Positions 3,266 through 40,861 of a DNA stretch of 64,000 bases are shown here, piece after piece. Every line of letters starts with the position of its first letter. The first letter of the stretch is position 1. A program made the translations under genes and the position numbers. The DNA comes from Hysterangium stoloniferum (Eukaryota > Basidiomycota > Agaricomycetes > Hysterangiales > Hysterangiaceae): positions 558,001 through 622,000 of the forward strand of contig WHVD01000008.1 of assembly GCA_015178975.1 (NCBI GenBank). Direction: 5' to 3'. The notes beneath the pieces were generated by a model, which worked only from the letters and a program-made list of their open reading frames with translations, had not been told where the DNA came from and ran no database searches.

Positions 3266-3313
3266 TCACATGATCTGGAAGGTAAGGTTCAGATGCGATG
3301 AGCCTATATAAAA
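3266..3313 (+). promoter_or_regulatory. Promoter of the opposite-strand gene of A1
   Basis: A TCACATGA site (3266-3273) is followed ~32 nt downstream by TATATAAAA (3305-3313), and the first ATG of the gene lies at 3396. The same pair of sites, in the same order, precedes the equivalent genes in B1 and A2. The function of TCACATGA (contains the E-box CACATG) is inferred from this three-way conservation. Confidence 0.6.
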
Positions 3314-3395
3314 AATTGAAAAAATGAAATTTTCTTCTTCTTTATTACCCCCATCTTCGACATAAATGGGTCCAAAGCCAATGCCGAGAAAACCA

Positions 3396-5395
3396 ATGCC
3401 GACTGCCAGGCCCTCCATGGGCACTCCATATTGGGTGCCTCTCACTGTGGCCCAAATTCTGGCACAGCGAGAGGAACAGCGCCAACAATGAGAAGAGGTG
3501 GAGAGGGAGGCCGAGGAGGTCAAGGAGGCCTTGGACAGGGAATATCAGGTGGCATTGGCTGCAGAGAAAGCAGCTGAGGAGCAGAGGAAGAAGGATGAGG
3601 AGGAGGCTGTGTGGGTTGCCACGGAGAAAGCCTGGGTGGCTGTGGATAGGGCCACAGTTACCATGGGCAAAGTAAGTCCCATAGATATAACATGTCATTT
3701 TAACTGACTTGGTATTTTCAGCACAAGGTGACAGAGGTTGAGTTGGAGTCTGAGGGGGAGCCGGAGAGCCTGTCAGGAACTGGAAAACCCGCCGGCCTCC
3801 GGGCCCCCGGACCCCATTCCTACATGCTCCCGACCCTCTATATTGTATAGTTACAACAGGAATTCCTGCCGGAGCCCACACGTTAACTTGTTTATGCCTG
3901 ACTCTCTGTACGCACCCACCTGTCTGCACCTAATCCTCTGTGTCTCATACACCAGTCCTCGGACTCCACTGGACTCCGGACTCCACTCTATGTACACCCG
4001 ACACTCTGTGTCTTATGTACCAGTCACCGGACTCCAACCGGACTCCTGGAACCCCTCTAACAGAGCATAGAACCCCACTCCTGTTATGATCTGTCTCTGC
4101 GTCTCACACACCAGTCATTGAAAAACCCACCGGACTCCACCGGACCTCATGCACATCAAACCTGTCTATACCCGACACTATCTTGTGCACCAAGTCACCG
4201 GACTCCGACCGGACTTCCGGAACCCCTCTAACTGAGCCCCGCTCCAGTTATGGTTAAATGACCTGTCATGATTCATTCTCCGCTCCCATTCCATTCTGTC
4301 CCTAATTCCCAGTTTAGTATTTACTTGTTTTGTTTTATGTTTAATAGTTCTGCCTCTCATTAATACCGGATTTGGTATTATTACATTTCACAGTCTATAT
4401 AAGTCTGCTATATTCATGTACTTAGAATCCAGTTTCAATCTCGAACAAGTTTTCCCCCGAACAAGTTTGACCCTTGAACAAGCTTTCCCTCAATCCCAGT
4501 CTCTAGTCCTCTTGTCTGTCTGCATGCTCAATTCCTGGAACTCCCACGGGAACTCTGGAATCTATATCTCCTTGCATGCATTCTGTCAGTTCAAAATATG
4601 GACGCCCGAATGAGTGTACGAGGGTGCAGCCTATAAGCTGAAGCCAAGTCCATCTCAGTCATACCCATTCTCTGGTAACTATTCTGATACGACACTCCCT
4701 TGTACTACTAATGTTCCCGGAAACTCCCCGGACCTATTACCCGGGGAGTCCGTGGGACTATTACCCGGAAAGTGTGTGTTCAGAATATAGTTACCGGAGA
4801 AACCTCTGCAGGACTATCCATGGAGATTTGTTCGGCAACTTAACAGAGCCCCCAGAAGGTAAGTATCGGGTCTGTGGGAATTCCAGGAAGCTAACCACAG
4901 CAACAGAAGCGGCACCAGTCTGCCTACCTGCGAGGAACAACCCATGGTGCTCCAGTTGTAATGACTGGAACATTGATTGCACTTGAAAGTCTGGGTGGGG
5001 ACTGGGCTGTTTCCAGTGTGTGCACCTCAAAGTGAGGTGCTCACTCATTCACGAGCAGCCCACGGGGTCTTGTGGCATGGGAAGCAAGTGGGTCAGATGG
5101 GAATTTGGGACTAGATCAGGTTTTGGGGCAGATCACCAAGGGCATAGAGGCCCAAAACAAGTTGCTGAGGAAGAGCAACAAGGTGCAAATAGTAGCCGCC
5201 AATGAGCTCCATGGGCTCTGTGATGAGTTTTGGAAATTCCTTGTGGAGTATGGTGGCTATGTGTATGAAGAGCCACAGATTGGAAGTTCTGAGGATGCCA
5301 GGTCAGATGAGGATGGGATGCCCATGGAGATAGCGGAGCTCCCTCAGGAGATGGCTGACGTGGGGAAAAAACACAGTCCCATAAATGTAGACTGA
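3396..5395 (+). pseudogene. Opposite-strand coiled-coil / Zn(II)2Cys6-like gene of element A1
   Basis: Three exons on the strand opposite to gag-pol. Exon 1 (3396-3671) encodes a short N-terminus and a highly charged E/K/A-rich coiled coil; a TGA interrupts it near residue 32. Intron 3672-3721 is GTAAGT...TTTTCAG. Exon 2 (acidic, rich in E/S) is split by a solo LTR at 3771-4845 and resumes at 4851. Exon 3 (4907-5395) carries C-X2-C-X6-C-X9-C-X2-C-X6-C, the Zn(II)2Cys6 spacing of fungal GAL4-type DNA-binding domains, with one TGA inside the cluster, then a helical region (LLRKSNKV, EFWKFLVEYGGYVYEEP) and an acidic tail ending NVD. Known: that Cys spacing binds two zinc ions in fungal regulators. 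Inferred: a DNA-binding accessory protein of the retrotransposon. Inactivated here by two stops and the insertion. Confidence 0.7.
3771..4845 (+). mobile_element. Solo LTR (1075 bp, relative of LTR-A)
   Basis: Starts TGTCAGGAACTGG, ends GGCAACTTAACA, and is flanked by the 5-bp target duplication GAGCC (3766-3770, 4846-4850). The intact counterpart in A2 (near 39440) reads through with one GAGCC. It shares the LTR-A start and the GCTGAAGCCAAGTCC box (4622-4653) but is 270 bp longer. ORFs inside it are not genes. Confidence 0.85.
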
Positions 5396-7775: not shown

Positions 7776-7879
7776 TCGGCCAATACGGCCACAACCTCAC
7801 AACCGGCTAAGCCAGCTGCCGAGTCGAAAAAAGATTAAGCAACTCTCTGGATTCTGTGCGGTTGGAGAGTTGCATTGAA

Positions 7880-9838: not shown

Positions 9839-9839
9839 G

Positions 9840-10511
9840 GAGGATATCTGAAAACTATTAAGTATACCAAATTCTAATATACTCTAAAGGTCATTTAAAC
9901 ATCTGAGATGTGATTCAAACATAATTTGGTTTTTAAAACTTTTTGAAAGTTTTAAACTCTCTCATACATTACAAACTAAAGAATCTTTCCGGACATGAGT
10001 AGACAATAAAAAAAATTAGTAGTTTGAAACACTAATACTTTTAAAAAATAGATACCTTTAGATAGTCCATTCCATGCATATGTATATCATTGGCACCTCT
10101 AAATACATATGTATTACTTCGGAATGGATCTGTTAATCTGAACAGATTTCTACTTGATTCAACATACCCAGAATATATAGGGGGTTTTACTTAATAAAGA
10201 CAGCTGTGATATGAAAAATTTCCAATAATATTTTACATATTTTACATGGAAATAACTACATTTCAACTTTTAAAAACCATGGTACTAATAAAAGTATTAG
10301 TAGGCATTGTAAAAGGAAGGAAATTATATACAATGGAATTTGTTAAATAACTATGGGTTGTATAAGATGTAATATGGAGAACTATTTCTGATGGTTATTT
10401 TTTGATGATATAATTGTTTCAGAATAGATATCACTATTTAAAGATGGAGTTTTGTAAAAATAAGACTTTTATTAGTAAATATTTGAGATTATAGTAATGA
10501 TAAACACCCTC
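9840..10511. mobile_element. AT-rich 672-bp unclassified insertion
   Basis: Flanked by the target duplication CATGG (9835-9839, 10512-10516) and interrupting the RNase H-integrase junction, which is continuous in A2. Ends are short imperfect inverted repeats (GAGGATATCT / GAGGGTGTTT). Much more AT-rich than the host element, no ORF, no TG...CA ends. Probably a non-autonomous DNA transposon; I could not assign a superfamily. Confidence 0.7.
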
Positions 10512-12261
10512 CATGGTAATTCACTTCCGTCCCGGCCGCCTTGGTGGAAAACCCGACACTATGACTAGACGATGGGACATCTATCCTAAAGAGGGGAGTA
10601 GCGACTACGCCACAGTTAATCCGCATAATTTCAAGCCCATGTTTTTATCGGAACAACTGTCCGCATCTATCCGAGCCACTTACCTCATTCATCCAGTCTT
10701 GCGAAGTGTTATCCTTATGGATACCGAAAAGTTACATCAAGACATACTATCGGCAATTCCATTAGACCCAGTCACCAAAGCACACCTCGATAACCTGTCC
10801 GACCCCGATCAACCCTGATGGTCATTAGACTCACAAGGTTTCATTAGATTTGACAATCGCATTTATGTACCAGATCCTGACACCCTTCGACTGCAAATCC
10901 TACAACATAAGCACGACCACCCAATCTCGGGACATTTCGGCCTCAATAAGACCCTCTCACTCATTAGAAGAGAATATACATGGCCCAGCATCCGAGATTT
11001 TGTTAAGCACTATTGTAAATCTTGTACTACGTGTCTATGCTCTAAATCACAGTGACACAAACCATATGGCCTACTCAAACAATTACCGATACCGGAAAAA
11101 CCTTGGAACTTGATTTCTATGGATTTCATCGAGCACCTACCGGCATCTGAAGGTCACACAGCAATCCTAGTTGTTGTGGATCGGCTCACAAAACAAAGTA
11201 TTTTCATTCCAACATATGACACAATAACATCTGTACAGTTAGCTAAATTATTCATCACCCATGTATTTTCCAAGCATGGCATTCCATCGCATGTCACATC
11301 CAATCGTGGATCTGAGTTTGTCTCTCACTTCTTTAGGTCACTTGGAAAAGCACTAGACATGAAGCTACATTTCACTTCGGGCTATCACCCAGAAGGCAAT
11401 GGCCAAACCGAATGCATGAATCAAACCTTGGAACAATACATCCGTGTCTATTGCAACTATCAACAAGACAATTGGAAATCACTACTACTGCTAGCCGAAT
11501 TCACATATAACAATGCACCAAATGCCACTACTGGCATTTCGCCTTTCTTCGCAAATAAAGGCTACAACCCCAACATCGCAATCCACCCAGAACACGATCT
11601 CACATCCACCCGTGCTCAAGGCTTTGTTATAAACCTTGATGAGCTACATCAAGAACTTCGTAAAACTATTGCAATGGCTCAAGAATGATACCAACAGTCT
11701 GCAGATAAGAACTGACTTCCGCCTCCTGACTTCAAGATCGGAGACCGAGTATTTGTTAAAGCCGAGTTTTTCCGAACTACTAGACCTTCTAAGAAGCTCT
11801 CTGAAAAATATTTAGGTCCTTTTGAAGTTATAGCACAAGCCAGCACACTTTCATGGATGCTTCGGCTCCCCAACAACATGCGTGCAGTGCACCCGGTATT
11901 TCATGTATCTATGTTAGAACCTTGTGTTGCTAACAGTATACCAGATCGCATACAACCACCACCTCCACCCGTGATTATTGATGGAGAACCTGAATTCGAG
12001 ATATCAGAGATCCTAGACTCAAAAATTGACAATCGCCGATGCTCATGCAAATTACTTTATTTGGTTAAATGGGCTGGCTATGAAGGTACAGATGAAGAAA
12101 CTTCATGGATACTAGCTACAGAGCTTGGTAATGCCTCAGAAATCGTTTCAGGGTTTCACCAAGCCTATCTGAACAAACCCGGTCCTCTAAATTCTTTAGA
12201 AGTCTATCACACAGTACTCCGACCCTTCCCCGACTATGCATTTATGATTTTCACGCTATGA
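10512..12261 (+). pseudogene. B1 integrase with C-terminal chromodomain
   Basis: After the insert the protein resumes with IHFRPGRLGG. The HHCC zinc region is visible (HKHDHP, then CKSCTTC near 11015-11040). The DDE core has SMDFIEHLP (first Asp) and YHPEGNGQTE (Glu), but the middle Asp of the usual TSDRGSEF reads TSNRGSEF, so the catalytic triad is broken. GDRVFVKAEFF precedes the chromodomain (LYLVKWAGYEGTDEETSW, ~12050-12110). Stops at ~10816, ~11054, ~11686 and ~11713. The C-terminus runs to 12261. Confidence 0.9.
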
Positions 12262-12296
12262 TTCGTTTGTTTTAAAAACCGATATATTTTTACTAT

Positions 12297-13210
12297 CTAA
12301 GTTTCTTCCTCTCTGGCCTCCGAACCTCCCCCTGCACCGACAGCCACCGATACCGTTCCACCAACCTTTTCCGACACCCCAATCTCGTGCCCAACTCCAT
12401 CGCAACTCGAGACTTCCAAGTACTGCTCAAGCTGACCCCCAAGAGACTCGATAATGCTGGTCTGCTTCTCCAGCCCGACGCCCAAAAGCTGCAACTGCTC
12501 AGTCATGAGCCCTTGTTGTCGCAGAGTCTCAAATTGGAACCGAGTCGTTTCTGAGAAATATGTCCACATAAGGCAGTTTTGCTCTTCCAGAGCATCGGCC
12601 TGTTGCTCCTGGAATGATCCATCGGCCCCCGGGAAGACACATCCAAGCTTCTGATTGGTGCACTCTTGACAAGTGCGGCCCCGACCATTGGCCTGAGGAT
12701 GGCAGATTCAACCCCATTTCGTGCACCGGTTGCACTTAGGGTCGTTTTCGGGCCCCACCTTGGGGGCCTGGTTTTGTTTCTATAGGAAAATTATTAGAAG
12801 AGTTTTTATTTAGGAAATCGAACCCACCTTGGGGCTCGATGGCCCTGGTGCATCCTCCTCGTCCTCCTCTTCCTCTTCGTCATCGGACTCCGAAGGCATC
12901 GCAGCCTTGTGCTAAAATATATATAAGTCAGTAAGGTTCACAGAAAATACCGGAGCCGACTTACCTTCCCCTCCCACTTCTTTTTTGCTGCCTCCTCTCG
13001 CGCCCGATCGGCCTCCTGCTGCTTTTTCTTCACAAGCACTGCATCCCAGTGCTTGCGTGCAGCCTCTTCCACCACCTGTTTCTTCTCCTTGGCCTCGATG
13101 GCCGCCAACTCCTCCTTCTCCTTCCACTCCTCCTCTTCACGTGCCTTTCTCTTCTGCTCGAGTACACGACAATGTTCCTGCGCATTCACTGGTCCACTTG
13201 GGACTGACAT
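12297..13210 (-). pseudogene. Opposite-strand coiled-coil / Zn(II)2Cys6-like gene of element B1
   Basis: Same position and orientation as in A1 and A2, but from the other LTR family. Exon 1 (ATG at 13210; an upstream in-frame ATG at 13273 is also possible) encodes a long E/K/A coiled coil (KRKAREEEEWKEKEEL). Donor GTAAGT near 12963 and an acceptor near 12912 precede an exon encoding a run of D/E; another intron near 12785-12830 follows. The last exon encodes C-X2-C-X6-C-X10-C-X2-C-X6-C (KCNRCTKWG, then CQECTNQKLGC), with one TGA between the second and third Cys, then a helical Q/L-rich tail to the stop at 12297. Sequence identity with the A-family protein is low outside the cysteines, so retention of the pattern argues for past selection. 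Confidence 0.65.
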
Positions 13211-13312
13211 AGGTGCAACCGTTAACCGAACTGGGAAGGGCTTCGACCCCGAACCTATGGTCATGGTGGTCAAGGGAAGAGAAGTGGAATTTCAAGCGCC
13301 AGGACCCCTCGA

Positions 13313-13346
13313 ATTTTTATATGTAATTTTTTGCTGAGTCACATGA
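13313..13346 (-). promoter_or_regulatory. Promoter of the B1 opposite-strand gene
   Basis: On the minus strand TCATGTGA/TCACATGA (13339-13346) is followed by ATATAAAAAT (about 13313-13322), ~105 nt before the ATG at 13210. Same arrangement as in A1 and A2. Confidence 0.5.
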
Positions 13347-13423
13347 TGTTTTGACACCCAACCGTACCCGACAAATTTTTTATGTACGGGATCTAGATTT
13401 TCAGCCTCCTTGGGATTTCGGCC

Positions 13424-13437
13424 AAAAGGGGAGATAC
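13424..13437 (+). promoter_or_regulatory. B1 polypurine tract
   Basis: AAAAGGGGAGATAC abuts the 3' LTR start TGTTACAACC at 13438. Expected plus-strand primer; slightly different from the A-family tract AAAGGGAGGGTAC. Confidence 0.75.
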
Positions 13438-14795
13438 TGTTACAACCATGTCGCAACCCTATTGGTCCCGAGGTTATTGCCACTTATCAACGTTTTCAAG
13501 TCACCACTTCGGAAACCATTGGCCCCCAAAGCTGACGTATGTTTTCGCGATGATCAAACTCTGTTTATGCCCACATGAAAATACTTGTATTGTCTGGTTA
13601 AACTTTTGATACATCCCTTTTATTATGTTGATCCGTTCTATCCTATGTTTCACATATGTCTATCTATATTTGTAGTCCTCGAACTATTTCCTTTTATCGT
13701 AATTCCGCTCTCGGTTATCATCGGCCTCCGAACTAATCATAAACTTCCCGTTCCTAGTCAAGCTTATTGTTAATGCCGTTTTCCGCCTTTCTCCCCATTA
13801 GTATTTTCTAGACGCCTGTTACTTGTATATGAACCCGCTGTAGTTGTAGTTACTAGGCAATCAGAATATCAACTCAGAATACCCTCATACGTCTGTAACA
13901 GTCTCATACTAAGAATCCCCCCATCCGCCTTCACGTGCGCTCACCCACTCCTGGCCCCGACCCCTTGGCCTGACACTCAACTTGTCCTTCAGTCCCAATT
14001 GGTATCTCGCCGAAAGGAACTCTTTAGGATTAGTCTTCGCCCGTCCGAAATCTAAGGACACCCTACGGATATTTGCAAGTGTGAAGAGTAGTGGAAGTTC
14101 TAACCGTTCTATATACAAAGAATATCGACTGTTTAGGTATGACACTAAGATGTATTGACTGTCGAAGTCTAATACAGAATGAACGCATATTGACTACTTA
14201 GTTCAATACGGTAGAAGGAAGTAGCTATCTAGAATAAGGTAGAGAGCTAAACGAATAAGTAGAATCGACTGTCAAGTGCAATTCTGAACGACTGCTCGAG
14301 AGTAAAGTAGAGTACTAGAGAGTCGAATAATAGAGTAGCGTGGATGTGGTCCACGCGAGTTGCGATAAGGATTGAGTTTCGACTTGTACAGTTCAAAACT
14401 CTGATAGAGTAGATAGCTAAAGCCCGTCTGTGACGGTCGAGACGATACACCAATCACAACTTACAGGACACTAATGGGTGTCTGGGTAAGTCGTGGTTGT
14501 GGTGTAAAAAGTGTCTGAGTTCTAAACTACGGGCGCTAGAATACACAAGTCTGGCATGTGTGTGCCCACAAGAGTCGATGTACCGCATACATAGGTTGTC
14601 GAACTAATTATAGATATAATAAAAGAGAGAAAATAGAAATAATAAAGGAAATATAGTAAGAGCTCATCCGACTATATTTCCTGAGTGTATTTCGCCATAC
14701 CTCTCACAGCAAGGGCACAGCACATAAGCTGAAGCCAAGTCCTTCCGATCGGTCCCTGTCAGCCACCGACATTAGTCAGTTTTCAGTTCTTAACA
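13438..14795 (+). mobile_element. B1 3' LTR (LTR-B, 724 bp without its insert)
   Basis: TGTTACAACCATG...CAGTTCTTAACA. From 13657 it matches the 5' LTR at 6005-6501. Interrupted by the LTR-C copy at 14080-14708. The first part gives the family start that allows the solo LTR at 20463 to be recognised. Confidence 0.85.
14080..14708 (+). mobile_element. Solo LTR-C, copy 1 (629 bp)
   Basis: TGTGAAGAGTAGTGG...ACCTCTCACA with target duplication GCAAG (14075-14079, 14709-14713); the 5' LTR of B1 has an uninterrupted GCGAGGGCACAG here. Related to the copies at 20793 and 25940. Contains an AT-rich segment with ATAATAAAAG (~14610). No internal region of this family is in the window. Confidence 0.85.
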
Positions 14796-22012: not shown

Positions 22013-23618
22013 CAGTGCCTCAAAAAACCCTTCTCATGTTTTATACTTCAGATGTATATTCCACATGATTCAAAGAATAAAAATGCAAAAATATTAAAGA
22101 TATTTGTGAATATGCTCTATCATATCTAGATTGTCAACGTACAATACCATTACATAATCTCCAAATATGGAAATACTACAAATATTTTTATACAAGAGAT
22201 TCATGAGAAGGGTTTTTTTGCTGGCAGGTTTGATGACTATAAGTGCTTATAGTCATGTGACTTTGTTGATTTTTACTTCCAGTTGGGTCCTATCAACAAA
22301 ATCACATGATATCACATGATGTCACATGACCATGTTGTACTGGAGTATAAATATATGGCTTTTAGCAACCAGCAATGCCCCAATTCCCAAAATGCACACT
22401 TTATCTCTTGCCAGCCAGAATCATATCCTCTCATTGCTTGATGTTGGCCACTCAGCTAGCCACATTGCAGCTTCTACTGGTCATAGCATTTCCACAGTCT
22501 CTAAGCTTTGCTCTAAGCATCATTCTCATCTCTCAAAGTCCATTGGTGGTCGTCCCTCAAAGCTTTCCCCTACCAACATTTAATATGCACAGCGCCTCAT
22601 CAGCTCTGGGAAGGCTGACACTGCTGTTGATGTGACCAAAGCCCTTAGGAATCTCACCAACCAGTCCATCTCTACCCAAACTGTGCACAATAGTCTCAAG
22701 ATGGTTGGGATGAAGGCTGTGATGAAGAAGAAAAAGCCCCTTCTCAGCAAGAAGCATAGGAAGGCAAGGATGGACTTTGCTATAGCACATCAGCATTGGA
22801 CTGTGGAGGACTGGAAGAAGGTGGTATGGTCTGATGAAACCAAAATCAACAGGTTGGGATCAGATGGGAGGAAGTGGGTCTGGAAAAAGGCTGGGGAGGG
22901 TTTGAGTAACAGGCTGGTTCAGGGGACTCAGAAGTTTGGAGGAGGATCTGTGATGGTATGGGGGTGTATGCTGTGGGAAGGAACTGGGTATGTTTGCAAG
23001 ATAGATGGGAGGATGGATGGAGACCTTTATCTCAAGATTATGGAGGAGGACCTTCAAGCCAGCCTCAACTATTATGGAAAATCTGTGGGTGATGTCATCT
23101 TCCAGCAAGACAATGACCCCAAACATACCTGCAAGAAGGCCCAGACTTGGTTTCAAAATAATAATTTCAATGTCCTCCCATGGCCAGCACAATCTCCAGA
23201 CCTCAACCCCATTGAACACTTGTGGGAGCATATCAAGAGGAGGCTGGGGGAGTATGAGGTTAAACCAAAAGGGATACTGGAGTTGTGGGAGAGGGTGGAG
23301 GAGGAGTGGAACAAGATTGATGCAGAGGTGTGTCAGAATTTGATTGGGAGTATGCCTAGGAGGGTTGCAGCTGTGTTGAAGGCAAAGGGTGGCTATACCA
23401 AGTACTGAATATAAGTAGTTTTGTGGGTCAGAGTGGTCAGCAAAAAAACCCTTCTCATGAGTCTCTTTGGAGATTATGTAATGGTATTGTACTTCCACAA
23501 TCTAGATATGATAGAGCATATTCACAAATACTTTTGATATTTTTGCATTTTTATTCTTTGAGTTACATGGAATATACATCTGAAGTATAAAACATGAGAA
23601 GGGGTTTTTGAGGCACTG
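22013..23618 (+). mobile_element. Tc1/mariner element Tc1-A (1606 bp)
   Basis: Ends are inverted repeats of roughly 200 bp beginning CAGTGCCTCAAAAA. TA precedes the left end (22011-22012); the right flank is AA, so one copy of the target TA has mutated. An inverted copy of the terminal motif (CATGAGAAGGGTTTTTTTG) lies at the inner edge of each repeat (~22203 and ~23440). Encodes one transposase. Confidence 0.85.
22392..23408 (+). pseudogene. Tc1/mariner transposase, DD34E (one premature stop)
   Basis: ATG at 22392. The N-terminus has a paired helix-turn-helix (HILSLLDVGHSASHIAA, STVSKL) and GRPSKLSP linker. A TAA at 22581 replaces the Gln seen in Tc1-B; downstream the frame is open to 23408. 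Catalytic motifs: VVWSDETKI (D), FQQDNDPKHT (D) and SPDLNPIEHLW (E), with 34 residues between the second D and E, as in Tc1-like enzymes. Ends GGYTKY. Expected role: cut-and-paste transposition at TA. A single stop makes it a recent casualty; suppression or repair could not be judged from sequence alone. Confidence 0.9.
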
Positions 23619-23895
23619 AAGTTTATTTGTCATTGGTATTTCTGCTCTTCCCTTAGTTAGTATTTTCTAGACACCAATAACTTGTATATACAGTGAAACC
23701 CTTCCAATGATTTTTAGTTGTGCAAAGATTCTTGAATAACTCAAGAACCACTGTAGATACAGACCTGAAATTTGGATGTTGGTTAGGTCTATATGTTATC
23801 TATATGCTCTTAGAATATTATGACATACACATTAGTATTTCCCACGCTATAAATAAAATAATAATAAAATCACATTGGAAGGGTTTTGTCCCAGT

Positions 23896-28580: not shown

Positions 28581-28880
28581 GTCAGAAAAATCCGAAAATC
28601 CTGATCAGGCCTGTCGGCCTGGCTGAATGCCAACATACCTGATGCCCACTGCTCAGGCCTGAACAGGGGTCAAGCCACCTGATTGTGCCTGGTGCACCCA
28701 AGTATCAGACCGGCAGTGCTCGGCACACAGGCCAGCTCCTTGCTGAAGGGTCACACAGCCTGCCACAAGGTCACATAGCCTGCCACAAAGTCACACAGCC
28801 TGATCAAGGCCTGCACAGACACCTGGCAGTCTGACTAAGATCTGTGCAGACACTCTGTGTGTAGGTATGCTTTAGGCTGC
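28575..28880 (+). repeat. GCCTGATCAGG-rich repeat, copy 1
   Basis: Starts GTGTCAGAAAAATCCGAAAA; an inverted relative ends at ~41627 (TTTTCGGATTTTTCTGACA). Both are full of AGGCCTGATCAGG and GCCTGTC-type words. Termini look mobile; class unknown. Confidence 0.55.
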
Positions 28881-30089
28881 ACTGTTGAAGGACAGTGACT
28901 CTGACCTGCGATCAAGAGCAGTATCATTTGTGGGGAAGATGTCAGAAAGAGGTACAGTACAGTGTGGTGATAGAATGAGAATCCAGCTGACGTTTGACCA
29001 AAGCTGAATTTCGAGCCACCATTGAGGGTGTCATTACCCCCATTGTTGCACTGTTAAAGGAGTCTAACTTTGATGTTCAATCAAGTGCAGTTTCCATCCT
29101 GGGGATGGTGTCAGAGCAAGGTGCAGTGTGATAATGGAATGGGAATCCAACTGACATTTGACCAAAGCCAGATTGGGAGCCACCATTGCACCTGTCATTC
29201 CTGACATTGTCACACTGTTGAAGGACTCTGACTCTGACATTCAATCACAGGCAGTATCGGCCCTGGAGAAGGTTTCAGAGCAAGGTGCAGTGTGTGATAA
29301 TGAGATGAGAATGCAGCTGACATTTGATGACAGCTGAACTTCGAGCAGCTATTGTGCATGTGATTCCTGACATTGTTGCACTGTTGAAGCACTCTGATAA
29401 TTGTGTTCAACAGTTTACAGTATGGGTCCTGGGGACATTTTCAAAGCAAGGTGCGGTGTGTGATAATGGGATGGGAGTCCAGCTGACATTTGACCACAGC
29501 CAAATTTCAAGCTGCCATCGTGCCTGCCATTCCCAACATTGTTGCCCTGTTGAATGATTCTCATCATTTTGTTTGAGTACGCACTGTAGTGGCCCTTGTG
29601 AACATTTCAAAACAAGGTGTGGTGTGACAATGGGACAGGTATCCAACTGACATTTGACCACAGCCAAATTTCACATCACCATTGCAGGTGTCATTCCCAA
29701 CATTCTTTCACTTTTGAAGGATTCTGAACCTTTCTTTCGATCATGCACAGTACATAAACTGGCAAACTTTTCAGAGCAAGGTATGGTGTGATAATGGAAT
29801 GGGAGTCCAGCTCACATTTGACCACAGCTGAATTTCAAGCTGCCATTAGGCCTGGCATTCCCGACATTGTTGCATTTTTGAAGGACTCTGACTGTTCCAT
29901 TCAATCAAGCACAGTATCGACCCTGGCGAAGTTTTTAGAGCAAGGTGCGGTGTGATAATAGGATGGAAATCCAGCTGACATTTAGCCACAGCCAGATGGC
30001 GAGCCACCATTGCACCTGCCATTACCAATATTGTTGCAATATTGAAGGACTGTGACTCTGATGTTTGAGAAAGTGCAATATCGGTCCTG

Positions 30090-30620
30090 GGGGTATCAGC
30101 AGCACCACATCCTGACAGAAAGTGGAAAGGAGAAAGAGCGGGGAGATTAGAACCTGTGGAAGGAGGGCAGGAGAGACAAATTGGCAGCATCGAAGGTGGG
30201 AGGGAACGTAAACCAATGGCGTTGAGGGACTGGCACTGGAGCGGAATCAAAATCAACATGACAAAGATGGCGAATGTAAATGTAAACACAACATCACAAT
30301 ATACCACCAAGCACAGGTCCACCCTGCATACAACCAGTGAAGGCATCCTGGCCAACTTCGTTAAGCAAGAAACCCGGTGCTACATCCACTATGAAACCTG
30401 CCACAATGCGAATAACATCAATGGTCACACCTACAAATGATCCAGGCTTGGTACAACGTCGAGTGCAGCTTCGATAGCTGGTGCTCATGGTAGTGGCAGT
30501 GGAAACGGGTGTACAGGAACAGAAGCAATGCTATATACAGTGCCTCAAATGACCTGTGCATTATTTTAGCTTCACTTACAGCTTCATCCTGGCTTAGGTG
30601 TTAGAGATTCGGCATACGAC
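30090..30620. other. Unrelated insert in the HEAT array
   Basis: 530 bp without the repeat unit, between degraded units. No recognisable protein. Contains TATATACAGTGCCTCAAA at ~30532, which matches the tip of Tc1-A for 13 bp, but no matching second end. Confidence 0.4.
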
Positions 30621-30870
30621 TGGAAGATTTCAGAACAAGGTGTGGTGTGTGATGATGGAATAGGAGTTCAGCTGACATTTGACCACAGCCAGATTGGGAG
30701 CCACCATTGCACCTGCCATTCCCAATATTGTTGCACTGTTGAAGGACTCTTCCTCTGACATTCTATCAAGTGCAGTATCAGGCCTGGGGAAGGTTTCAGA
30801 GCAAAGTGCAGGGTGTGATAATTGGATAGGAATCCAGCTGACATTTGACGACAGTGGAATTGCGAGCTGC

Positions 30871-31017
30871 CATTGCACCTGCCATTCCCACCATTGCACC
30901 TGCCATTCCCACCATTGCACCTGCCATTCCCACCATTGTACCTGCCATTCCCACCATTGCACCTGCCATTCCCACCATTGTACCTGCCATTCCCACCATT
31001 GCACCTGCCATTCCTGC
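30871..31017 (+). repeat. 21-bp minisatellite within a HEAT exon (7 copies)
   Basis: CATTGCACCTGCCATTCCCAC is repeated about seven times with GCA/GTA variants. The 21-bp length is in frame and repeats APAIPTI, the first-helix segment of the HEAT exon. It produces spurious long ORFs on both strands. Confidence 0.85.
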
Positions 31018-31952
31018 CATTATTGCACTGTTGGAGGAGTCTAACCATGACATTCAATCAAGTGCAGTATTGGTATATTTCAGAGCAAGGTGCAGTGTGT
31101 GATAATGGGGTGGGAATCCAGCTGACATTTGGCTGCAGCCAAATTGCGAGCTGCCATTGCACCTGCCATTACTGATATTGTTTCACTGTTGAAGGGCTCT
31201 GACTGTTGACTTCAATCAATCGCAGTATTGTTTGTGAGGAAGATATCAGGGCAAGGTGAAGTGTGTTAATGGGATGGGAATCCAGCTAACAATTGAGCAT
31301 AGCTGAATTTCGAGCTGCCATTGAGGGTGTCATTCCCACCATTGTTGCACTGTTGAAAGACTCTGACATTCGATCAAGTGCAGTGTCAGTGCTGGGCAAG
31401 GTTTCAGAGCAAGGTGCAGTGTATGCTAATGGTATAGGAATCCAGCTGACATGTGACCACAGCCAAATTGCAAGCCATCATTGAGAGTGTCATTCCCACC
31501 ATTGTTGCACTGTTGGAGGATGCCAACTATTGTGTTCGATCAAGTGCAGTATTGGCCTTGGGAAAGGTTTTAGAGCAAGTTACGATGTGTGATAAAGGGA
31601 TGGGAATTTAGCTGACATTTGACCACAGCCGAATTTTGAGCCACAATTGTGGGTGTCATTCCCACCATTATTGCACTGTTGAAGGACTCCTACTATCCAG
31701 TTTGATTGAGTGCATTGTCATTCATAGGAAAGGTTTCAGAGCAAGATGCAGTGTGTGATAATGGGATGGGAATCCAGCTGACATTTGACCACAGTGGAAT
31801 TTCATGCCGTGTCATTCCCACCATTGTTGCACTATTGAAGGACTCTGACTCTCACGTTCAACCAAGTGCAGTATCATGCTGCTTCAAGCCTACATGCCAC
31901 CACACCCACTTCCTTGGTGCTGAGCTTGGACAACATTTAAGTTCACTCCTCT

Positions 31953-32532: not shown

Positions 32533-33640
32533 TGTTACGACCAGACAATTTTGCCAGACTCCAGGCACTAACCCGTACGCCCCCGCACCCTACATGCACC
32601 AATTGTCTGTTTATAGGATTTCCCGCCCAGACTCCGTATTGTTAGAGTATGATACTACAGCTCTAACATAGTCTATTATGATCTCCATATTTTTCTGATA
32701 TTTGTAGTATTTTTCCCAGCACTGTAGGTGCAGTATTGAGTGAGTTACCTTAGGTCAGTACCTCCTGTATAGGTGCCTAGATAAGCACCTAGTAGTGTAG
32801 TCCACTGTGGGTGTGGGAAAGTCTCCTTAGTGTTTACTTTCCAATCACACTCACAGGTATGTCTTTACAGTTGAATATACTTAGTGTTTACTTTCCAATC
32901 ACACTCACAGGGGTGTTCTGCAAAGTGTTATTCAACTGTTTCAACACGTATGTCAAGACTTGTTATGTTCGACCTCATTACGACACATATCAGTCACCAG
33001 ACTTCCCCCAGACTCTGTCTCTGTCTATGTCCATCTTCATCCCACGCATCAGTCACCGGACCCCACTCAGAATCCCGTCACTGCTCTAACTGAGCCCCAT
33101 TCCCATTTTAGTCAAATGACCTGTCACGATTTGGACTCCGCTCCTGCTCTGTTTCCCATTATGGGTTATGCTTTGTCACGATTCGGACTCCACTCCATTC
33201 CGTCCCGTTCCTAACACCAATTTGGTGTTTACATTTCCTGTTTTATGTTTTGCTCATTTCATTTCATTATTACTGGATTCGGTATGACATTTACTCCACG
33301 GTCTATTTAAACTGGCAGATGTTGTACATACAATCCAGTCAGAAAATTAGCTTAGATTCCCCCCAGTAATCTAATCCATTTTCCACTCTAAACCCTTGCT
33401 TGATTCACATCGCTCTCACTAGTCGGAGCCCACAGGCTCCGGTGCATCTATCTCTCTCAACTATCTCGACTCATGACCCACGACCTACGACCTATGACCC
33501 ACGAACCCCACCTGGGCTCCCCGAGATTCCCGTCCACCTGTTCGAAATTGGACAACATGATTTAGCTAGGGTGCAGCCTATAAGCTGAAGCCATGTCCTA
33601 CCAGATATCCGGAGACCGGCCCTGTGTGTGTATCCTAACA
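32533..33640 (+). mobile_element. A2 5' LTR (796 bp without its insert)
   Basis: TGTTACGACCAGAC...TATCCTAACA. Contains TATTTAAA (~33304) and AGTCAGAAAAT (33337-33347), the predicted transcript 5' region. Differences from the 3' LTR are almost all transitions. Confidence 0.9.
32640..32946 (+). mobile_element. Solo LTR-D (307 bp)
   Basis: TGTTAGAGTATGATAC...CTGTTTCAACA with target duplication CGTAT (32635-32639, 32947-32951); the 3' LTR reads CATACGTCAAG without insert. A ~30-bp sequence beginning TTAGTGTTTACTTTCC is directly repeated 53 bp apart inside it. Confidence 0.85.
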
Positions 33641-33642
33641 GT

Positions 33643-33653
33643 ATTTTCTGACT
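33643..33653 (+). promoter_or_regulatory. A2 primer-binding site, self-priming type
   Basis: ATTTTCTGACT, two bases after the LTR, is the exact reverse complement of AGTCAGAAAAT at 33337-33347, about 30 nt downstream of the LTR TATA-like box. Confidence 0.65.
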
Positions 33654-33675
33654 AATACTTGCAGATTGTTTTATT

Positions 33676-34955
33676 ATGCCACCAAGAAGAAGAATGCGTC
33701 CACAGGAATCATTACCTGGACCATCAACTCTTCATTCCCCGTTAACTCTGTATACCAGCCAGACGCTTGTGAACCAGTCGGAACCCATGGAAGAAGCCCA
33801 TATCGAAGAAGTCCCAGAAAACCAGGACAACTCCGAGCATGAGGACAAATCCGTGGCCCCCAACAAGGGCAAAGGTGTCGAAAATCCTCCGCTTTACGAA
33901 CAACCGCACTCAAGGGATCCTACTTCTGAATTTTTAGTGGGTACTATAGATAAATTCATGACGCACCTGCTAGAAGAATGAAAGAAAAAGGAACAAGAAC
34001 CTCCACGGTCAAAAGTCAATGCTCCGGAACCCTTCATGGGTTCCAACCCAAACAAACTCTCTACTTTCCTCATGCAATGTCACTTCAATTTCTGCGATCG
34101 ATCCGCCACATTCTCCACAGACTCCCGAAAGTCAACTACACACTTTCATATTTGTCGGGATCCACATTGAAATGGTTTGAACTGGCTTTTAGCAGACTTT
34201 CTGAGGAAGAGCCGCTTTGGCTCGAAGATTGGGATGCTTTTGTTGAGGAGCTTGAAACCAACTTTGGCCCATATGACCCGACAGGAGAAGCCGAGAATAG
34301 TCTCACAAATCTTCATATGAAGGACACACAGTGCATCATGGACTATATTGTCCAATTCAATAATCTCTCAGCTCGTTGTCAGTGGAGCGATCTCGCTCTC
34401 TGCCACCAATTCTACACCGGTCTGCCATCCCGCCTTAAAGATGAAGTCTCGAAAGGAGAAGATGGCAAGCCGAAAACCCTGTCCTGTATGTGCCTCAAAG
34501 CTCAAAATGTGGATGCACGTTATTGGGAATGTCACATGGAAGTTGCCCGTGAGACCTCCATGGACAAAGTGAACAAGTCCACAGCCAATAAAAACAACAA
34601 CAACTCGTCAACCAGCAACCAGAACTCCATGCAATCTGACAAGAAGAACGATAAAAAGTCTTCAAACAACAACAACAACAACAAGGACAACAAGGACAAC
34701 AACAAGGGTCAACAGTCTGGCAAGCAGACCAGAAAACCTGACCTCTCAGGCAAACTCGGACCCGATGGCAAATTGACCCCACAGGAAAGACAACGTCACA
34801 TGGACAATAACCTCTGTCTCTTGTGCAGGAAACCCGGTCATCGAGTCCTGGAATGTCCGCTGGCAAAAGCAAACTCTTCAAAGGGTCGTACAGCCAAGGC
34901 CTCCATGGAAACCCCATCGAAGGACAAACTGGCTTCCAATTCGAAAAAAGAGTAA
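33676..34955 (+). pseudogene. A2 gag
   Basis: MPPRRRMRPQESLPGPSTLH start, acidic region, TGA at ~33979 and a frame change near 34100. Capsid core (WLEDWDAFVEELETNFGPYD, DYIVQFNNLSARCQW), N/K/D-rich linker with poly-Asn, zinc knuckle CLLCRKPGHRVLEC (C-X2-C-X4-H-X4-C). Ends NSKKE at 34955. Protease follows in another frame. Confidence 0.9.
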
Positions 34956-36989
34956 GCAACCCTGTGGACTCCACGTGGGTTGGGGGTTGCATTGCCTCTC
35001 CACACATTCAAGAGTTTACTCGCCTCAACGCATCCACTCTTTCACATTCTGATTCATTTTTCGTTAAACTTATGTCTAATATGATCCCGAAACTCATTTT
35101 TTCAGCTCTCATAGATTCCAGCTCGACTCATTGTTTTTAGATACAAAATTCATGCAAAATAATTCTTTGTCAACCTATTCGATAAATCCTGTCGGCCTCC
35201 ACCTCTTTGATGGTACAAGTAATTTGGTTATTACCCAAGCTTGTGATTTACCCATCTGTTTCCCGTGTGGAACATCTCAATTGGTCACTTTCTATGTGAC
35301 CCAGTTAGACTCAAGTTGCTCAGTGGTCCTAGGACATAACTGGCTTACCCGCTACAATCCGTTGATTGACTGGATAGCTAACAGTATAACATTCCGGACT
35401 TTCGTGGCAGCCGAGGAAACTGCACCTGTCCCGGCCTCCACGGCACCTGCAGTCTCAAGGACTCCTGTGATCCCTAGGCCACCCATGGCTTCCCCGGAAC
35501 CCACGGCACCTCCATCTATTTCTCTGATTAATGCTGCAGCTTTTATTAGGGCTACAAAAATAGACAGGTCCCAGGTGTTCACTATCAACTTAAAAATTGA
35601 TGAAGCAACTGGATGTTTTTCAACCCCGGTATCCGAATCTGAGCAAGCCGCTGACCTAGAAGGCATCCCAGAGAAATATCATGACATCGCAGATGTTTTT
35701 AGCAAGCGAAAAGCTGACCGGCTTCCACCTCACAGAGAATACGACTTAAAAATCGATCTCGAAGATGGCACCCAGCCACCCCTAGGACATATTTACCCGC
35801 TCTCGTCCACAGAACTTTCTGCAATCCGTGATTTCCTGGATGAACATTTGTCCATAGGTTTTATCTGACCCCCAAAGTCTCCTTTTGGAGCACCTGTTCT
35901 CTTTGTCAGAAAAAAGGATGGATCCCTTCGACTATGTGTTGATTTTAGAGGCCTCAATGCTGTCACCAAAAAGGATAAATATCCACTCCCACTTATATCT
36001 GATCTGCTCAATGCTCCACAGAATGCCCAGATTTACACCAAAATAGATCTCAAACACGCCTATCACTTGGTCTGGATAGCTGCAGGCGATGAATGGAAAA
36101 CCACTTTTAGAACCCGTTATGGGGCCTTTGAGTGGTTGGTGATGCCCTTGGACTCACCAATGCTCCGTCTGTTTTTCAGCGTTTTATCAACGACATTTTC
36201 TCCAACATGCTTGATGTATGCATCATTGTTTACTTGGACAACATTCTTTTCTACTCTGAGAATCCCGCGGAACACAACAAACAAGTCCATGAAGTTCTCC
36301 GGAGACTCAGACAACATGGTTTATTCGCGAATGGTAAAAAATGTACTTTTGACACGGACTCCGTGGAATACCTGGGTTTCATGATGGGACCTGATGGACT
36401 CCGCATGGACGAAACTAAAGTGCAAGTCATCAAAGATTGGCCTGAACCCCAAAAAGTCAAAGATATACAATCCTTTCTCGGCTTTGCCAATTTTTACCAA
36501 CAGTTTATCCATGGATATTCCGCCATCACAGTACCCCTTACCTGTCTTACACGTAAGGGTACTCCGTGGAAATTTCAATGATAAGTGTCAAAAAGCTTTC
36601 AATCTTTTAAAAATTCTTTTTCCTCAGCTCCTATTCTGTCGCATTGGAAACCAGACTTCCCGCTCATCGTTGAAATGGACACCTCGGACTATGCACTTGG
36701 AGCCATTCTGTCTATCCAGGACTCCAACAGAGAAGTCCACCCCATGGCTTTTCTGTCCCAGACTTTCACCGGAGCAGAGCTCAACTACGGTGTTCATGAT
36801 AAGGAACTCCTGGCAATATTTTCAGCTTTCAAAGCATGGCGACACTATTTGGAAGGCTTGGGAACTCCTATTGACATTGTAACAGATCACAAAAACCTGG
36901 AATACTTTTTTACCACAAAGCCTTTGACCCGCCGGCAGGCCCACTGGTCTGAATATCTATCTGCCTTCAACATGACTATCCATTTTTAA
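34956..36989 (+). pseudogene. A2 protease, reverse transcriptase and RNase H
   Basis: Protease LIDSSSTHCF (DSS instead of DSG, as in A1) with a frameshift at ~35138. The pre-RT linker is continuous to GFI at 35868, where a stop falls. RT motifs [26 protein letters not shown], then a frameshift near 36150. The catalytic motif is YLDN (36234 region), the second Asp lost by a G-to-A change. FLGFANFYQQF, two stops at ~36580, then RNase H (VEMDTSDYALGA, YGVHDKELLAIF, DHKNLEYF) to a stop at 36989. Confidence 0.9.
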
Positions 36990-38660
36990 CCCGGCTGTCT
37001 CGGCAGCAAACCCGATGCTTTAACTAGATGATGGGATGTCTATCCTAAAGAGGGGAGCAATGACTATGCCACAGTAAATCTGCACAACCTGAAACCTATT
37101 TTCACAAATCAACAACTTACCGCATTGGTCCGTGCAACTTTCCTCATCAATCCCATTGTCTGTGGAATTATCATTATGGATATTGAGAAGTTACATGAAG
37201 ATATTCTATTGGCAATTCCGCTAGACCCAGTTACTAAAGCTCACCTTGACAATCCCATGGACCCCGATCAACCTCGGTGGTCTCTTGATCAGCATGGTTT
37301 CATTAGACTTGACGATAGGATCTATGTACTGGACTCCGACAGCCTCCACCTCAGGATCCTTCAATCCAAACATGATCATCCACCCTCAGGACATTTCAGG
37401 TACAACAAAACTCTATCACTAATAAGAAGAGAATATACTTGGCCCAGACTCTGTGGATTTGTTAAGCACTATTGTAAATCTTGCACTACTTGTCCCTGCT
37501 CGAAATCTCAGCGACACAAGCCATACGGCCTTTTGAAACAACTCCCGGTACCAGAACACCCATGGAATTCTATCTCTATGGATTTCATTGAACACCTACC
37601 GGATTCCAAAGGCTTTTCCGCCATTCTAGTCATTGTTGACAGATTCTCAAAACAAGGTATATTCATCCCTACATATGACACAATTACATCCGTGCAGTTA
37701 GCGGAACTTTTCATCATCCACGTATTTTCCAAGCATGGAGTTCCATCCCACGTGACTTCCGATTGAGGATCAGAGTTCATGTCTCACTTCTTTAGATCCC
37801 TCGGGAAATCCTTGGACATGACACTACATTTCATGTCCAGATACCACCCGGAAGGTGACGGACAAACCGAACACGTCAACCAGACATTGGAACAATATCT
37901 CCACGTATATTGCAACTATCAACAGGACAATTGGAAATCCTTGTTACCACTTGCAGAATTTGCTTACAACAATGCACCCTTGGCCACTACTGGTGTTTCC
38001 CCGTTCTTTGTAAATAAAGGATATCATCCAAATATTACAGTACATCCAGAACAAAATCTCACCTCCGCTCACGCTCAAGAGTTCACCATGGACCTCCATG
38101 AGCTCCATGAGGAACTCCAGACTGCAATAAAGTCCACCCAAGAGCAATACCAACTTTCAGCAGACAGACACCGGATCCCGCCACCAAACTTCAAGATTGG
38201 CGACCGTGTTTTTGTCAAAGCTCAATTCTTCTGGACTACCCATCCATCAAAAAAGCTTGCTGAAAAATATTTAGGTCCATTTGAAATTATTGCACAAGTA
38301 GGTTCAGTCTCTTGAACGCTACAGCTTCCAGATAGCATGCGCACGGTACACCCGGTATTTCATGTTTCTATGTTAGAACCTTGTACTGCTAACACTATCC
38401 CAGATCGCATGCAATCTCCGCCTCCTCCGGTCATTATTGACAGAGAACCTGAGTTTGAAATCTCACAAATTTTAGATTCGAAAATCAACAAGCATCAAAG
38501 CACTTGTAAACTGCTTTACTTGGTCAAGTGGGTGGGTTACGAGGGCACCGATGAAGAAACCTCTTGGACTTTGGCCACGGAACTCGGTAATGCCATGGAA
38601 ATCATTACTGACTTTCAAACAGCTTACCCACTCAAACCCAGACCACTTTCATCTCTCTGA
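36990..38660 (+). pseudogene. A2 integrase with chromodomain
   Basis: Begins after the RNase H stop (PGCLGSKPDAL in a stop-containing stretch). Zn region HDHPPSGHFRYNKT and CKSCTTCPC. DDE: SMDFIEHLP, TSD followed by a TGA in place of Arg (~37765), and YHPEGDGQTEHVN. GDRVFVKAQFF, a stop at ~38314, then VHPVFHVSMLEP and the chromodomain LYLVKWVGYEGTDEETSW (~38515-38570). Ends at 38660. Chromovirus-type integrase. Confidence 0.9.
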
Positions 38661-38877: not shown

Positions 38878-39816
38878 TCAGTCTACAATTATGGGACTGT
38901 GTTTTTTCCCTGCCTCCTCAGCCACCTCCTCAGGAAGCTCCACAACCTCCACGGCAACCCCGTCCTCATCTGACCCGGCATCCTCGGAACTCCCGACTTG
39001 CGGCTCTTCATACACATAGCCGCCATACTCCGCCAGGAACTTCCAAAACTCCTCACAGAGTCCGCACAGTTCCTTTGCCACCACTATGTGGACCTTGTTG
39101 CTCTTCCGGAGCAACTCGTTTTGGGCCTCTATGCCCTCAGTGATCTGTCCCAGGACCTTGTCCAATCTGGAAAACCCGTCTGACCCGCTGATGTCCTGCA
39201 CCCCAGACCTCACGGCCTGCTTGTGAACAAGTGAACACCTCGCCTTGAGGTGTGCACATTGGAAGCAGCCCGGACCCCGGCCGGACTTTCGATTGCACTC
39301 AGTGTTCTGGTCATTACAACCGGAACACTGCGGGTCATTCCATGTGGGTAGGTGGACTGGTGCCACCTTCCTTGCTTTCTGTTGATATGGTTAGTTCCAC
39401 GGTATATCCCACAGACCCGTTGCTTACCTTTTGGGGCTCTCTGGCTCCCCCTCGGACTCCGATTCAACCTCTGTCGCCTTGCACTGAAAATAACAAGTCA
39501 GTGATGAAAAAGAAAATGACAAGTCTAAGTTGGGACTTACCTTCCCCGCGACAATTGCGGCTCTGTCCACAGCCACCCGCACCTTCTCCGTGGCCACCCA
39601 CACAGCCTCCTCCTCATCTTTCTTCCTCTGCCTCTCGGCCTCTTCCTCTGCAGCCAATGCCACCTGGTACTCTCTGTCCAAAGCCTCCTCGGCCTCCCTG
39701 GCCTCCTTCTCTGCTTCTTCACGAAGTCAGTGCTGCTCTTCTTGCCACGCCCAAAGTTGTGCCACGCTCCAAGGCACCCGATATGGAGTGCCCGTGGAGG
39801 GCCCCACAGTTGGCAT
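38878..39816 (-). pseudogene. Opposite-strand coiled-coil / Zn(II)2Cys6-like gene of element A2 (best copy)
   Basis: ATG at 39816 (MPTVGPSTGTPYRVPW), one TGA at about residue 30, then an E/A/R-rich coiled coil (EEAEKEAREAEEALDREYQ). Intron ~39489-39540 (GTAAGT...TTTTCAG). A short acidic exon (ATEVESESEGEPESPK) and a second intron ending ATCAACAG follow. The last exon (~39378-38878) is fully open: C-X2-C-X6-C-X9-C-X2-C-X6-C (CSGCNDQNTEC, then CFQCAHLKARC), a helical region (RLDKVLGQITEGIEAQNEL) and a tail ending SPIIVD. About 250 residues if the one stop is ignored. A Zn(II)2Cys6 fold is inferred from exact cysteine spacing; the basic spacing residues NRKSGRGPG resemble the loop of such domains. 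No nuclear localisation signal was identified with confidence. Confidence 0.75.
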
Positions 39817-39898
39817 TGCTCATTTTGGCATTGGCTTTGGTCCCATTTTGTCGATGATGGGGGTAATAAAGAAGAAGAAATTTCTATTTTTTCAAATT

Positions 39899-39945
39899 TA
39901 TATATAGGCTCGTCGCGTTTGAACCTTACCTTCCAGATCACATGA
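39899..39945 (-). promoter_or_regulatory. Promoter of the A2 opposite-strand gene
   Basis: TCACATGA (39938-39945) lies ~32 nt upstream of TATATA (39899-39906), and the ATG follows at 39816. Position and sequence match the A1 copy. Confidence 0.6.
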
Positions 39946-40043: not shown

Positions 40044-40056
40044 AAAGGGAGGGTAC
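40044..40056 (+). promoter_or_regulatory. A2 polypurine tract
   Basis: AAAGGGAGGGTAC immediately before the 3' LTR start TGTTACGACTGG. Confidence 0.8.
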
Positions 40057-40861
40057 TGTTACGACTGGACAATCCCACCAGACTCTGGGCACTAACCCAT
40101 ACACCCCCACGCCCTACACACACCAATTGTCTGTTTATAGGATTTCCCGCCCGGACTCCATACGTCAAGACTTGTTACATTCGACCTCATTACAACACAT
40201 ATCAGTCACCGGACTTCCCCTGGACTCCATCTCTGTCTATGTCCATCTTTGTCCCACGCATCAGTCACCGGACCCTGCTCAGAATCCTGTCACCACTCTA
40301 ACTGAGCCCCGTTCCCATTTTAGTCAAATGACCTGTCACAATTTGGACTCCGCTCCCGCTCCATTTCCCATTATGGGTTATGCTTTGTCACGATTCAGAC
40401 TCCACTCCATTCCATCCCGTTCCTAACACCAATTTGGTGTTTACATTTCCCATTTTATGTTTTGCTCATTTCGTTTTGTTATTACTGGATTCGGTATGAC
40501 ATTTACTCCACAGTCTATTTAAACTGGCAGATGTTGTATATACAATCCAGTCAGAAAATTCACTTAGATTCCCCCCAGTAATCTAATCCATTTTCCGCTC
40601 TAAACCCTTGCTTGATTCACATCACTCTCACTAGTCGGAGCCCAAAGGCTCCGGCACATCTATCTCAACTATCTCGACTCACGACCCACGACCTACGACC
40701 TACGACCCATGAACCCCGCCCGGGCTCCCCGGGATTCCTGTCTGCCTGTTCGAAATTGGACGACACAATCTAGCAAGGGCGCAGCCTATAAGCTGAAGCC
40801 AAGTTATACCGGATATCCCGCGGGTTTCTTCGGAGACCCGCACTATGTGTGTATCCTAACA
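40057..40861 (+). mobile_element. A2 3' LTR (805 bp)
   Basis: TGTTACGACTGG...TATCCTAACA, full length and uninterrupted, the best LTR-A reference in the window. Conserved GCTGAAGCCAAG box at ~40790-40805. Confidence 0.9.

Follow-up and report, generated by a model that had tools for sequence, protein, structure and literature searches.

What is a gene with predicted introns and a zinc-cluster-like cysteine motif doing on the opposite strand of a fungal retrotransposon? We addressed this in Hysterangium stoloniferum, an ectomycorrhizal member of the Hysterangiales (PMC7550596), using a window of 64,000 nucleotides (the whole stretch of DNA analysed; contig WHVD01000008.1, positions 558,001 to 622,000) from a 111 Mb assembly (GCA_015178975.1). 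The window holds copies of two related element families, termed A and B, and copies of the gene are followed here from one element, A2, across the assembly.

An antisense gene inside a chromovirus

A2 is a Ty3/gypsy chromovirus, with an integrase followed by a chromodomain, a pair of LTRs and a polypurine tract. Pfam matches comprise Integrase_H2C2 (E 7.5e-16) and Chromo (E 8.2e-8), together with an rve match that falls under the Pfam cutoff (E 2.3e-4). A three-exon gene (38878-39846, minus strand) occupies the space between the pol stop and the polypurine tract. The features of the element and of its antisense gene are as follows.

32949..33640, plus strand: 5' LTR, partial (~89% identity to the 3' LTR; first ~100 bp gone)
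33676..38660, plus strand: gag and pol, split over several frames, with the pol stop at 38660
37125-37766, plus strand: integrase (Pfam)
38337-38660, plus strand: chromodomain (Pfam)
39378-38878, minus strand: exon 3 of the antisense gene, 501 nt including the stop; Cys motif, predicted helix (low confidence), acidic tail
39379..39427, minus strand: intron 2, 49 nt, GTAAGC...ACAG
39483-39428, minus strand: exon 2, 56 nt; short acidic segment, then SPxK
39484..39540, minus strand: intron 1, 57 nt, GTAAGT...TTTTCAG
39846-39541, minus strand: exon 1, 306 nt; ATG start and a charged N-terminal region, coiled-coil-like by eye
39899-39906, minus strand: TATA box TATATATA of the antisense gene, also present in the alignment across copies
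39938-39945, minus strand: TCATGTGA on the gene strand (TCACATGA on the plus strand), upstream of the TATA box
40044..40053, plus strand: polypurine tract AAAGGGAGGG, read from the sequence, directly 5' of the 3' LTR
40057..40861, plus strand: 3' LTR, with TG...CA ends

An earlier note on this DNA had described a Ty3/gypsy chromovirus with a gene in reverse orientation, situated between the integrase stop and the polypurine tract, and with a TATA box and a further motif upstream of that gene. Coordinates and Pfam matches agree with this placement, and the two upstream elements lie where they were proposed. The cysteines of exon 3 are indeed spaced C-X2-C-X6-C-X9-C-X2-C-X6-C, and the exon is free of stops, as claimed. 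The note was right that A2 carries the gene structure but overlooked its decay. Stops interrupt the frame of exon 1 at codons 9 and 40 and a frameshift affects exon 2, so the A2 gene is unable to yield a protein.

Two further observations concern the surroundings of the gene. The stretch from the 5' LTR to the start of gag (33641-33676, plus strand) contains signals like those of a branch point and an acceptor (CTGAC, CTAAT, TTGCAG), as though the leader of the sense transcript had an intron too. Diverged direct repeats form a large array at 28878-31880, where several of the readings have long repetitive frames.

Copies of the gene in family A

Copies of family A were located through the antisense gene itself, not through pol. 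A DNA search gave at least 41 matches (40 of 880 candidates scored), and a protein search with exon 3 gave at least 150 matching loci (150 of 1212 first-look candidates scored, all of which match); 19 of these 150 share one identical score. Aligning 39 fetched copies with that of the window (n=40) reveals that GT and AG at the two donor and two acceptor sites are kept in 38, 40, 39 and 40 copies, a total of 157 of 160 splice dinucleotides, which bears out the fungal-type introns and three exons of the earlier proposal. Agreement among copies is 0.94-0.99 at the intron ends vs 0.84-0.85 in the intron bodies. Intron 1 lengths cover all residues modulo 3 among the 40 copies; exon length is a multiple of three in 33, 35 and 30 of them for exons 1, 2 and 3, respectively.

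Seven of the 40 copies have no internal stop, and six of these have all four splice dinucleotides, the seventh (L025) having lost the second donor. L025 and L036, otherwise open, each lack one cluster cysteine. From 20 further A loci, a continuous spliced product of 294 residues is predicted in 11, seven of them identical, and a shorter product in five more; for the other four (L059, L060, L063 and L064) the motif-based parser gave no gene model, and they were counted as having no product. Two of these 11 loci, L052 and L055, hold young elements: the LTR stretches compared (414 and 411 nt) are identical, and the stop-to-stop frames are open in gag (438 and 437 codons) and in pol (1304 codons). 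The antisense gene is thus carried by elements that were recently mobile.

Contig ends cut six of the 20 stretches around these copies (L053, L054, L056, L057, L061 and L062), and all six surround copies with the 294-residue product. The assembly therefore appears to be interrupted where the youngest copies lie, and their number is probably underestimated.

Several copies are unusual in other ways. Open frames of 339 and 341 residues at two loci were considered as spliced retrocopies and rejected: both introns are still there, the frames being open by chance, so these loci are no proof of splicing. Three annotated host 'hypothetical proteins' (P0001-P0003) are fragments of the antisense transposon gene; exon junctions can be read from the annotated protein sequences, both of them in P0003 and the first intron plus the second donor in P0002. 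In exon 1 of L043 a short repeat, REEQRCL, is triplicated in frame within the charged N-terminal part, which points to exon 1 tolerating length changes that keep the frame. The window itself has another antisense gene of family A, in an element on the minus strand:

3366..5392, plus strand: third antisense gene of the window (family A), interrupted from ~3770 to ~4845

Its corresponding upstream site, at 3266, reads TCACATGA on its gene strand.

Selection on the coding frame

The A gene is under purifying selection. Transversion variability among copies is 0.0265, 0.0246 and 0.0668 at codon positions 1, 2 and 3, with 0.0913 in the introns; the ratio of position 3 to positions 1 and 2 (2.61) was reached in 0 of 10,000 permutations. 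Over 858 coding columns, the median Nei-Gojobori dN/dS is 0.229 (0.152-0.402) among 12 near-intact copies (66 pairs), and it is 0.231 over 702 pairs, a set that leaves out L046 and L047 (cut exon 1) and one pair with dS <=0.02. The same calculation in the two shifted frames returns 1.11 and 0.98. Because the pairs are non-independent and CG decay inflates both rates, this contrast between frames is safer than the dN/dS value itself. A comparison of this kind had been proposed in the earlier note, with a ratio near 1 counting against the gene; the ratio found is far from it.

A homologous gene in a second family

The same window contains a homologous antisense gene in a second chromovirus family, B, which the earlier note missed. 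Its pol shares 78-83% amino-acid identity with that of A over two stretches.

about 6900-14080, plus strand: B chromovirus, internal region and 3' LTR
12297..12779, minus strand: exon 3 of the B antisense gene, C-X2-C-X6-C-X10-C-X2-C-X6-C, with one in-frame stop in the window copy
12828..12911, minus strand: exon 2, acidic
12965..13264, minus strand: exon 1
13339-13346, gene strand: TCATGTGA motif upstream of the B gene

At least 150 loci match the B gene (150 of 348 candidates scored, all matching), and five of six fetched copies give a continuous product. The A and B proteins share ~33% identity over 94 residues of the Cys region (BLASTP E 1.4e-7). Both introns occupy equal positions in the two families and are in phase 0, at GK/xK... 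and SPxK/K (the slash marking the intron). All six cysteines are invariant in a seven-sequence alignment of A and B; in a larger alignment of 19 sequences four are invariant and the second and third nearly so, because L036 and L025 have each lost one. The upstream motif TCATGTGA, on the gene strand, is shared by 34 of 40 A copies and seven of seven B rows, one of which (L073) has unrelated sequence as its 5' part. Four further occurrences of TCACATGA lie on the plus strand of the window, at 22302-23895.

The homology, common introns and cysteines, set beside ~33% identity in a protein whose neighbouring pol is 78-83% identical, indicate that the gene is probably older than the A/B split and evolves much faster than pol. 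Its intact copies, splice signals, dN/dS of 0.23 and homologous counterpart in B mark it as a conserved accessory gene that two related chromovirus families of H. stoloniferum have in common. Two protein searches matched this species alone (two and three matches), and a search with the B query alone returned no match.

A zinc-cluster-like protein

The predicted protein of ~290 residues is ordered as a charged, coiled-coil-like N-terminus (by eye), the acidic exon 2 segment, a basic patch (KKARK or KKQK), the Cys motif, a helical segment predicted at low confidence and, last, an acidic tail. In the young A protein there are exactly six cysteines, every one inside the motif. Zn(II)2Cys6 proteins follow the spacing rule CX2CX6CX5-12CX2CX6-8C, which accommodates both A (X9) and B (X10). 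The resemblance to these regulators thus lies in the six-cysteine spacing (CX2CX6CX9-10CX2CX6C), the adjoining basic patch and the predicted helical segment. Family A differs in having no basic run between Cys 2 and Cys 3, a feature typical of GAL4-like proteins (GAL4 and PPR1 were compared), and both families differ in scoring under the Pfam cutoff.

Zn_clus (PF00172) is the commonest weak Pfam match, found in 13 of 19 exon 3 proteins at E <=10 (best E 0.034). Isolated motifs score 14.7 bits for A (E 0.035) and 14.0 bits for B (E 0.054); 14.7 bits is the best of any Pfam scan, and no scan gave a Zn_clus match above the 21-bit gathering cutoff. Profile searches of the PDB returned no significant zinc-cluster match; by sequence, LEU3 appeared at E 5.1. 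For exon 3, the AlphaFold models are of low confidence (mean pLDDT 50.5 for A and 55.4 for B), and Foldseek found no significant match for the A model, itself of low confidence. The link to GAL4-type regulators drawn in the earlier note is therefore not established by these scans: the protein appears zinc-cluster-like by spacing and setting, and its membership of PF00172 is unproven.

Where the motif does align to Zn_clus, the register is unusual. In most of the scans that show their best stretch, the first Cys triplet of A and B aligns to profile positions ~16-31, which we take to be the second half of the domain, bearing the canonical second triplet. This suggests that the two halves of the cluster may stand in swapped order. 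Against such an exchange, L045 aligned to Zn_clus canonically (E 3.1). A substitution-matrix test of the half-motifs is weakly favourable, the swapped score being reached by 1.7-3.9% of shuffles and the swapped-minus-canonical difference by 8-37%. We found no description of a zinc cluster with exchanged halves among the listed titles and abstract openings of openly licensed papers.

CGG palindromes within the element

If the protein binds DNA, its own element may hold the sites. We chose a test of CGG motifs after inspecting the sequence, and the analysis is exploratory. Word counts were taken on the sense strand of the whole of L052, a young A element. Over-represented words there (observed, with expected in brackets) include CCGTGGA at 16 (1.5), CGGACTCCG at 8 (0.4) and TCCACGGA at 8 (0.6); CCGCGGAG is likewise in excess, and the excess words span LTR, gag and pol. 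Inverted CGG pairs number 23 at a spacing of N3 and 28 at N5, with ~4.4 expected at each, and the maximum was reached in none of 150 simulations. There are also 15 inverted pairs at a spacing of 14, and the everted form CCGCGG occurs 16 times.

The excess extends to the LTR, which is non-coding. Here inverted CGG pairs number 5, 3 and 4 at N3, N5 and N14; for CGG-N3-CCG 0.41 are expected, and none of 400 shuffles was as high at any spacing. Many of the CGG-type sites lie within gag-pol coding sequence, not the LTR, and TCCGYGGA-type sites are absent from the young A LTR. Synonymous-codon shuffles of pol reach the observed counts of CGG words in 0-1 of 2000 cases, and TCCNNGGA is spread over the three frames of pol (4, 4 and 2). 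The same comparison is mixed for gag, with CGG-N3-CCG reached in 70 of 2000 shuffles and GGANTCC in 528 of 2000. A stricter, order-3 model reduces the excess: 5 vs 0.9 for CGG-N3-CCG in the LTR (maximum of 150 simulations 4) and 11 vs 3.3 for TCCGYGGA-type sites (maximum of 150 simulations 10).

The B element available for these counts is a decayed copy. It has a peak at N3 (5 vs 0.7), the maximum over spacings being reached in seven of 150 simulations; its 7.2 kb contain no TCCGYGGA-type site and one GGACTCC/GGAGTCC. Across 23 kb of other window sequence there is no spacing peak of inverted CGG. The orientation of GGACTCC in L052 is biased, with 15 of 16 cases on the sense strand, which argues against a plain symmetric dimer site.

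Sites of related form are known from yeast, where Pdr1 and Pdr3 are zinc-cluster proteins. The consensus PDREs bound by these two are TCCGCGGA and TCCGTGGA, and Stb5, Pdr8 and Yrr1, which are called zinc-cluster proteins, have sites overlapping PDREs (available text of PMC5539612). As target sites of the antisense-encoded protein, the CGG palindromes are a lead, not a result.

A proposed regulator of its own element

We favour, with a probability of roughly 0.55, a reading in which the gene encodes a nuclear, dimeric, sequence-specific DNA-binding protein that would work in trans on the copies of the element encoding it and set LTR transcription through CGG palindromes. The gene, antisense to gag-pol, would be transcribed from a TATA promoter of its own, immediately internal to the polypurine tract, and the three exons would be spliced in vivo to give the ~290-residue protein. 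This product would bind zinc, enter the nucleus, dimerize and recognize DNA, its candidate sites being the CGG-N3-CCG of the LTR together with the many spaced CGG pairs of the element body. Given the acidic tails, activation is slightly likelier than self-limiting repression.

More tentatively, each family may possess a private circuit, made up of its own zinc-cluster transcription factor, perhaps with swapped halves, and CGG sites that evolved with it: CGG-N3-CCG in the LTR, and CGG-N3/N5-CCG plus TCCGYGGA-like sites in gag-pol. We regard this as possible, at odds of about one in three.

A regulatory role has to be weighed against one as an integration or nuclear-import factor, in which the protein would bind nucleic acid or chromatin and move with the integration complex. 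The basic patch adjoining the Cys motif and the coiled-coil-like parts would suit such a factor, the gene is conserved alongside open gag-pol frames, and GENE23 of maize Grande, which is antisense too, gives a nuclear product (as described in PMC7264820). Yet the pol chromodomain is already a targeting device, and a promoter and introns of its own on the opposite strand would better suit a separately regulated nuclear gene; we judge this role unlikely.

The rapid divergence of A and B, ~33% identity in the Cys region against 78-83% in pol, could also be read as an arms race, with the protein countering host silencing, for example by shielding CG sites of the element or blocking RNA silencing. 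Several of the enriched words include CG, and, by eye, CG sites seem to have turned into TG/CA in old copies, whereas young copies retain them. The dN/dS of 0.23 in family A is, on average, without sign of positive selection, and a role against silencing seems to us quite improbable.

That the antisense transcript acts instead of a protein, through interference with sense transcription or double-stranded RNA, would fit the location of the gene and is a role suggested for plant antisense ORFs (in the available text of PMC7264820); constraint at the codon level, conserved splice signals and conserved cysteines require a protein, however, leaving this idea very improbable. We give almost no credence to a passenger gene captured from the host, or to a chance frame with zinc-like spacing: the lack of relatives beyond the host species in protein searches would agree with either, but two families have common intron positions, and over 858 coding columns the dN/dS of 0.23, set against ~1 when the frame is shifted, contradicts both.

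Antisense genes of other LTR elements

Some plant Ty3/gypsy elements are known to carry opposite-strand ORFs in the interval from pol to the 3' LTR, as the earlier note stated. This aORF-3R group takes in GENE23 of maize Grande, rice RIRE2, Silene Retand and PvRetro13, and its members are retained in most copies; the Grande gene has its own promoter and a nuclear protein, and the Retand ORFs encode a TRP28 domain with suspected DNA binding (available text of PMC7264820 and PMC11963269). The A gene resembles them in being antisense and in its position between pol and the 3' LTR; it occurs in many copies and shows coding constraint. It differs in that the hosts there are plants, Retand is a non-chromovirus and TRP28 is another domain; the word 'zinc' is absent from PMC7264820.

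Closer in host is brtn, the antisense additional gene of Boty from Botrytis cinerea (as described in PMC7264820 and PMC8365987), an element for which a chromodomain is mentioned (PMC4227169, in part). Like the A/B gene, brtn is an antisense additional gene of a fungal Ty3/gypsy element with a chromodomain; unlike A and B, Boty has an ascomycete host, and brtn is compared here by description only. Retroviruses have antisense genes as well, among them HBZ of HTLV-1 (available text of PMC11963269). HBZ is a nuclear regulator encoded on the antisense strand of an LTR element, the role that we propose for A and B, but the protein is unrelated and host and element are others, making the likeness an analogy only.

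The earlier note knew of no zinc-cluster gene in a fungal chromovirus, and for the spliced, zinc-cluster-like variant this novelty apparently holds: we found none in a fungal LTR element among the listed titles and abstract openings of openly licensed papers. It does not extend to the antisense gene as such, of which Boty already provides a case in a fungal chromovirus.

Antisense accessory genes of Ty3/gypsy elements have been described mostly from plants, their function unsolved (available text of PMC7264820). In the fungal case copy number is high, the coding constraint is clear, the introns are conserved, two versions evolve independently, and the element itself contains candidate target sites. 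Binding assays in vitro and a reporter in yeast could therefore put the role of such genes to a direct test. If the proposed role is true, fungal LTR elements would be able to carry regulators resembling a major class of fungal transcription factors.
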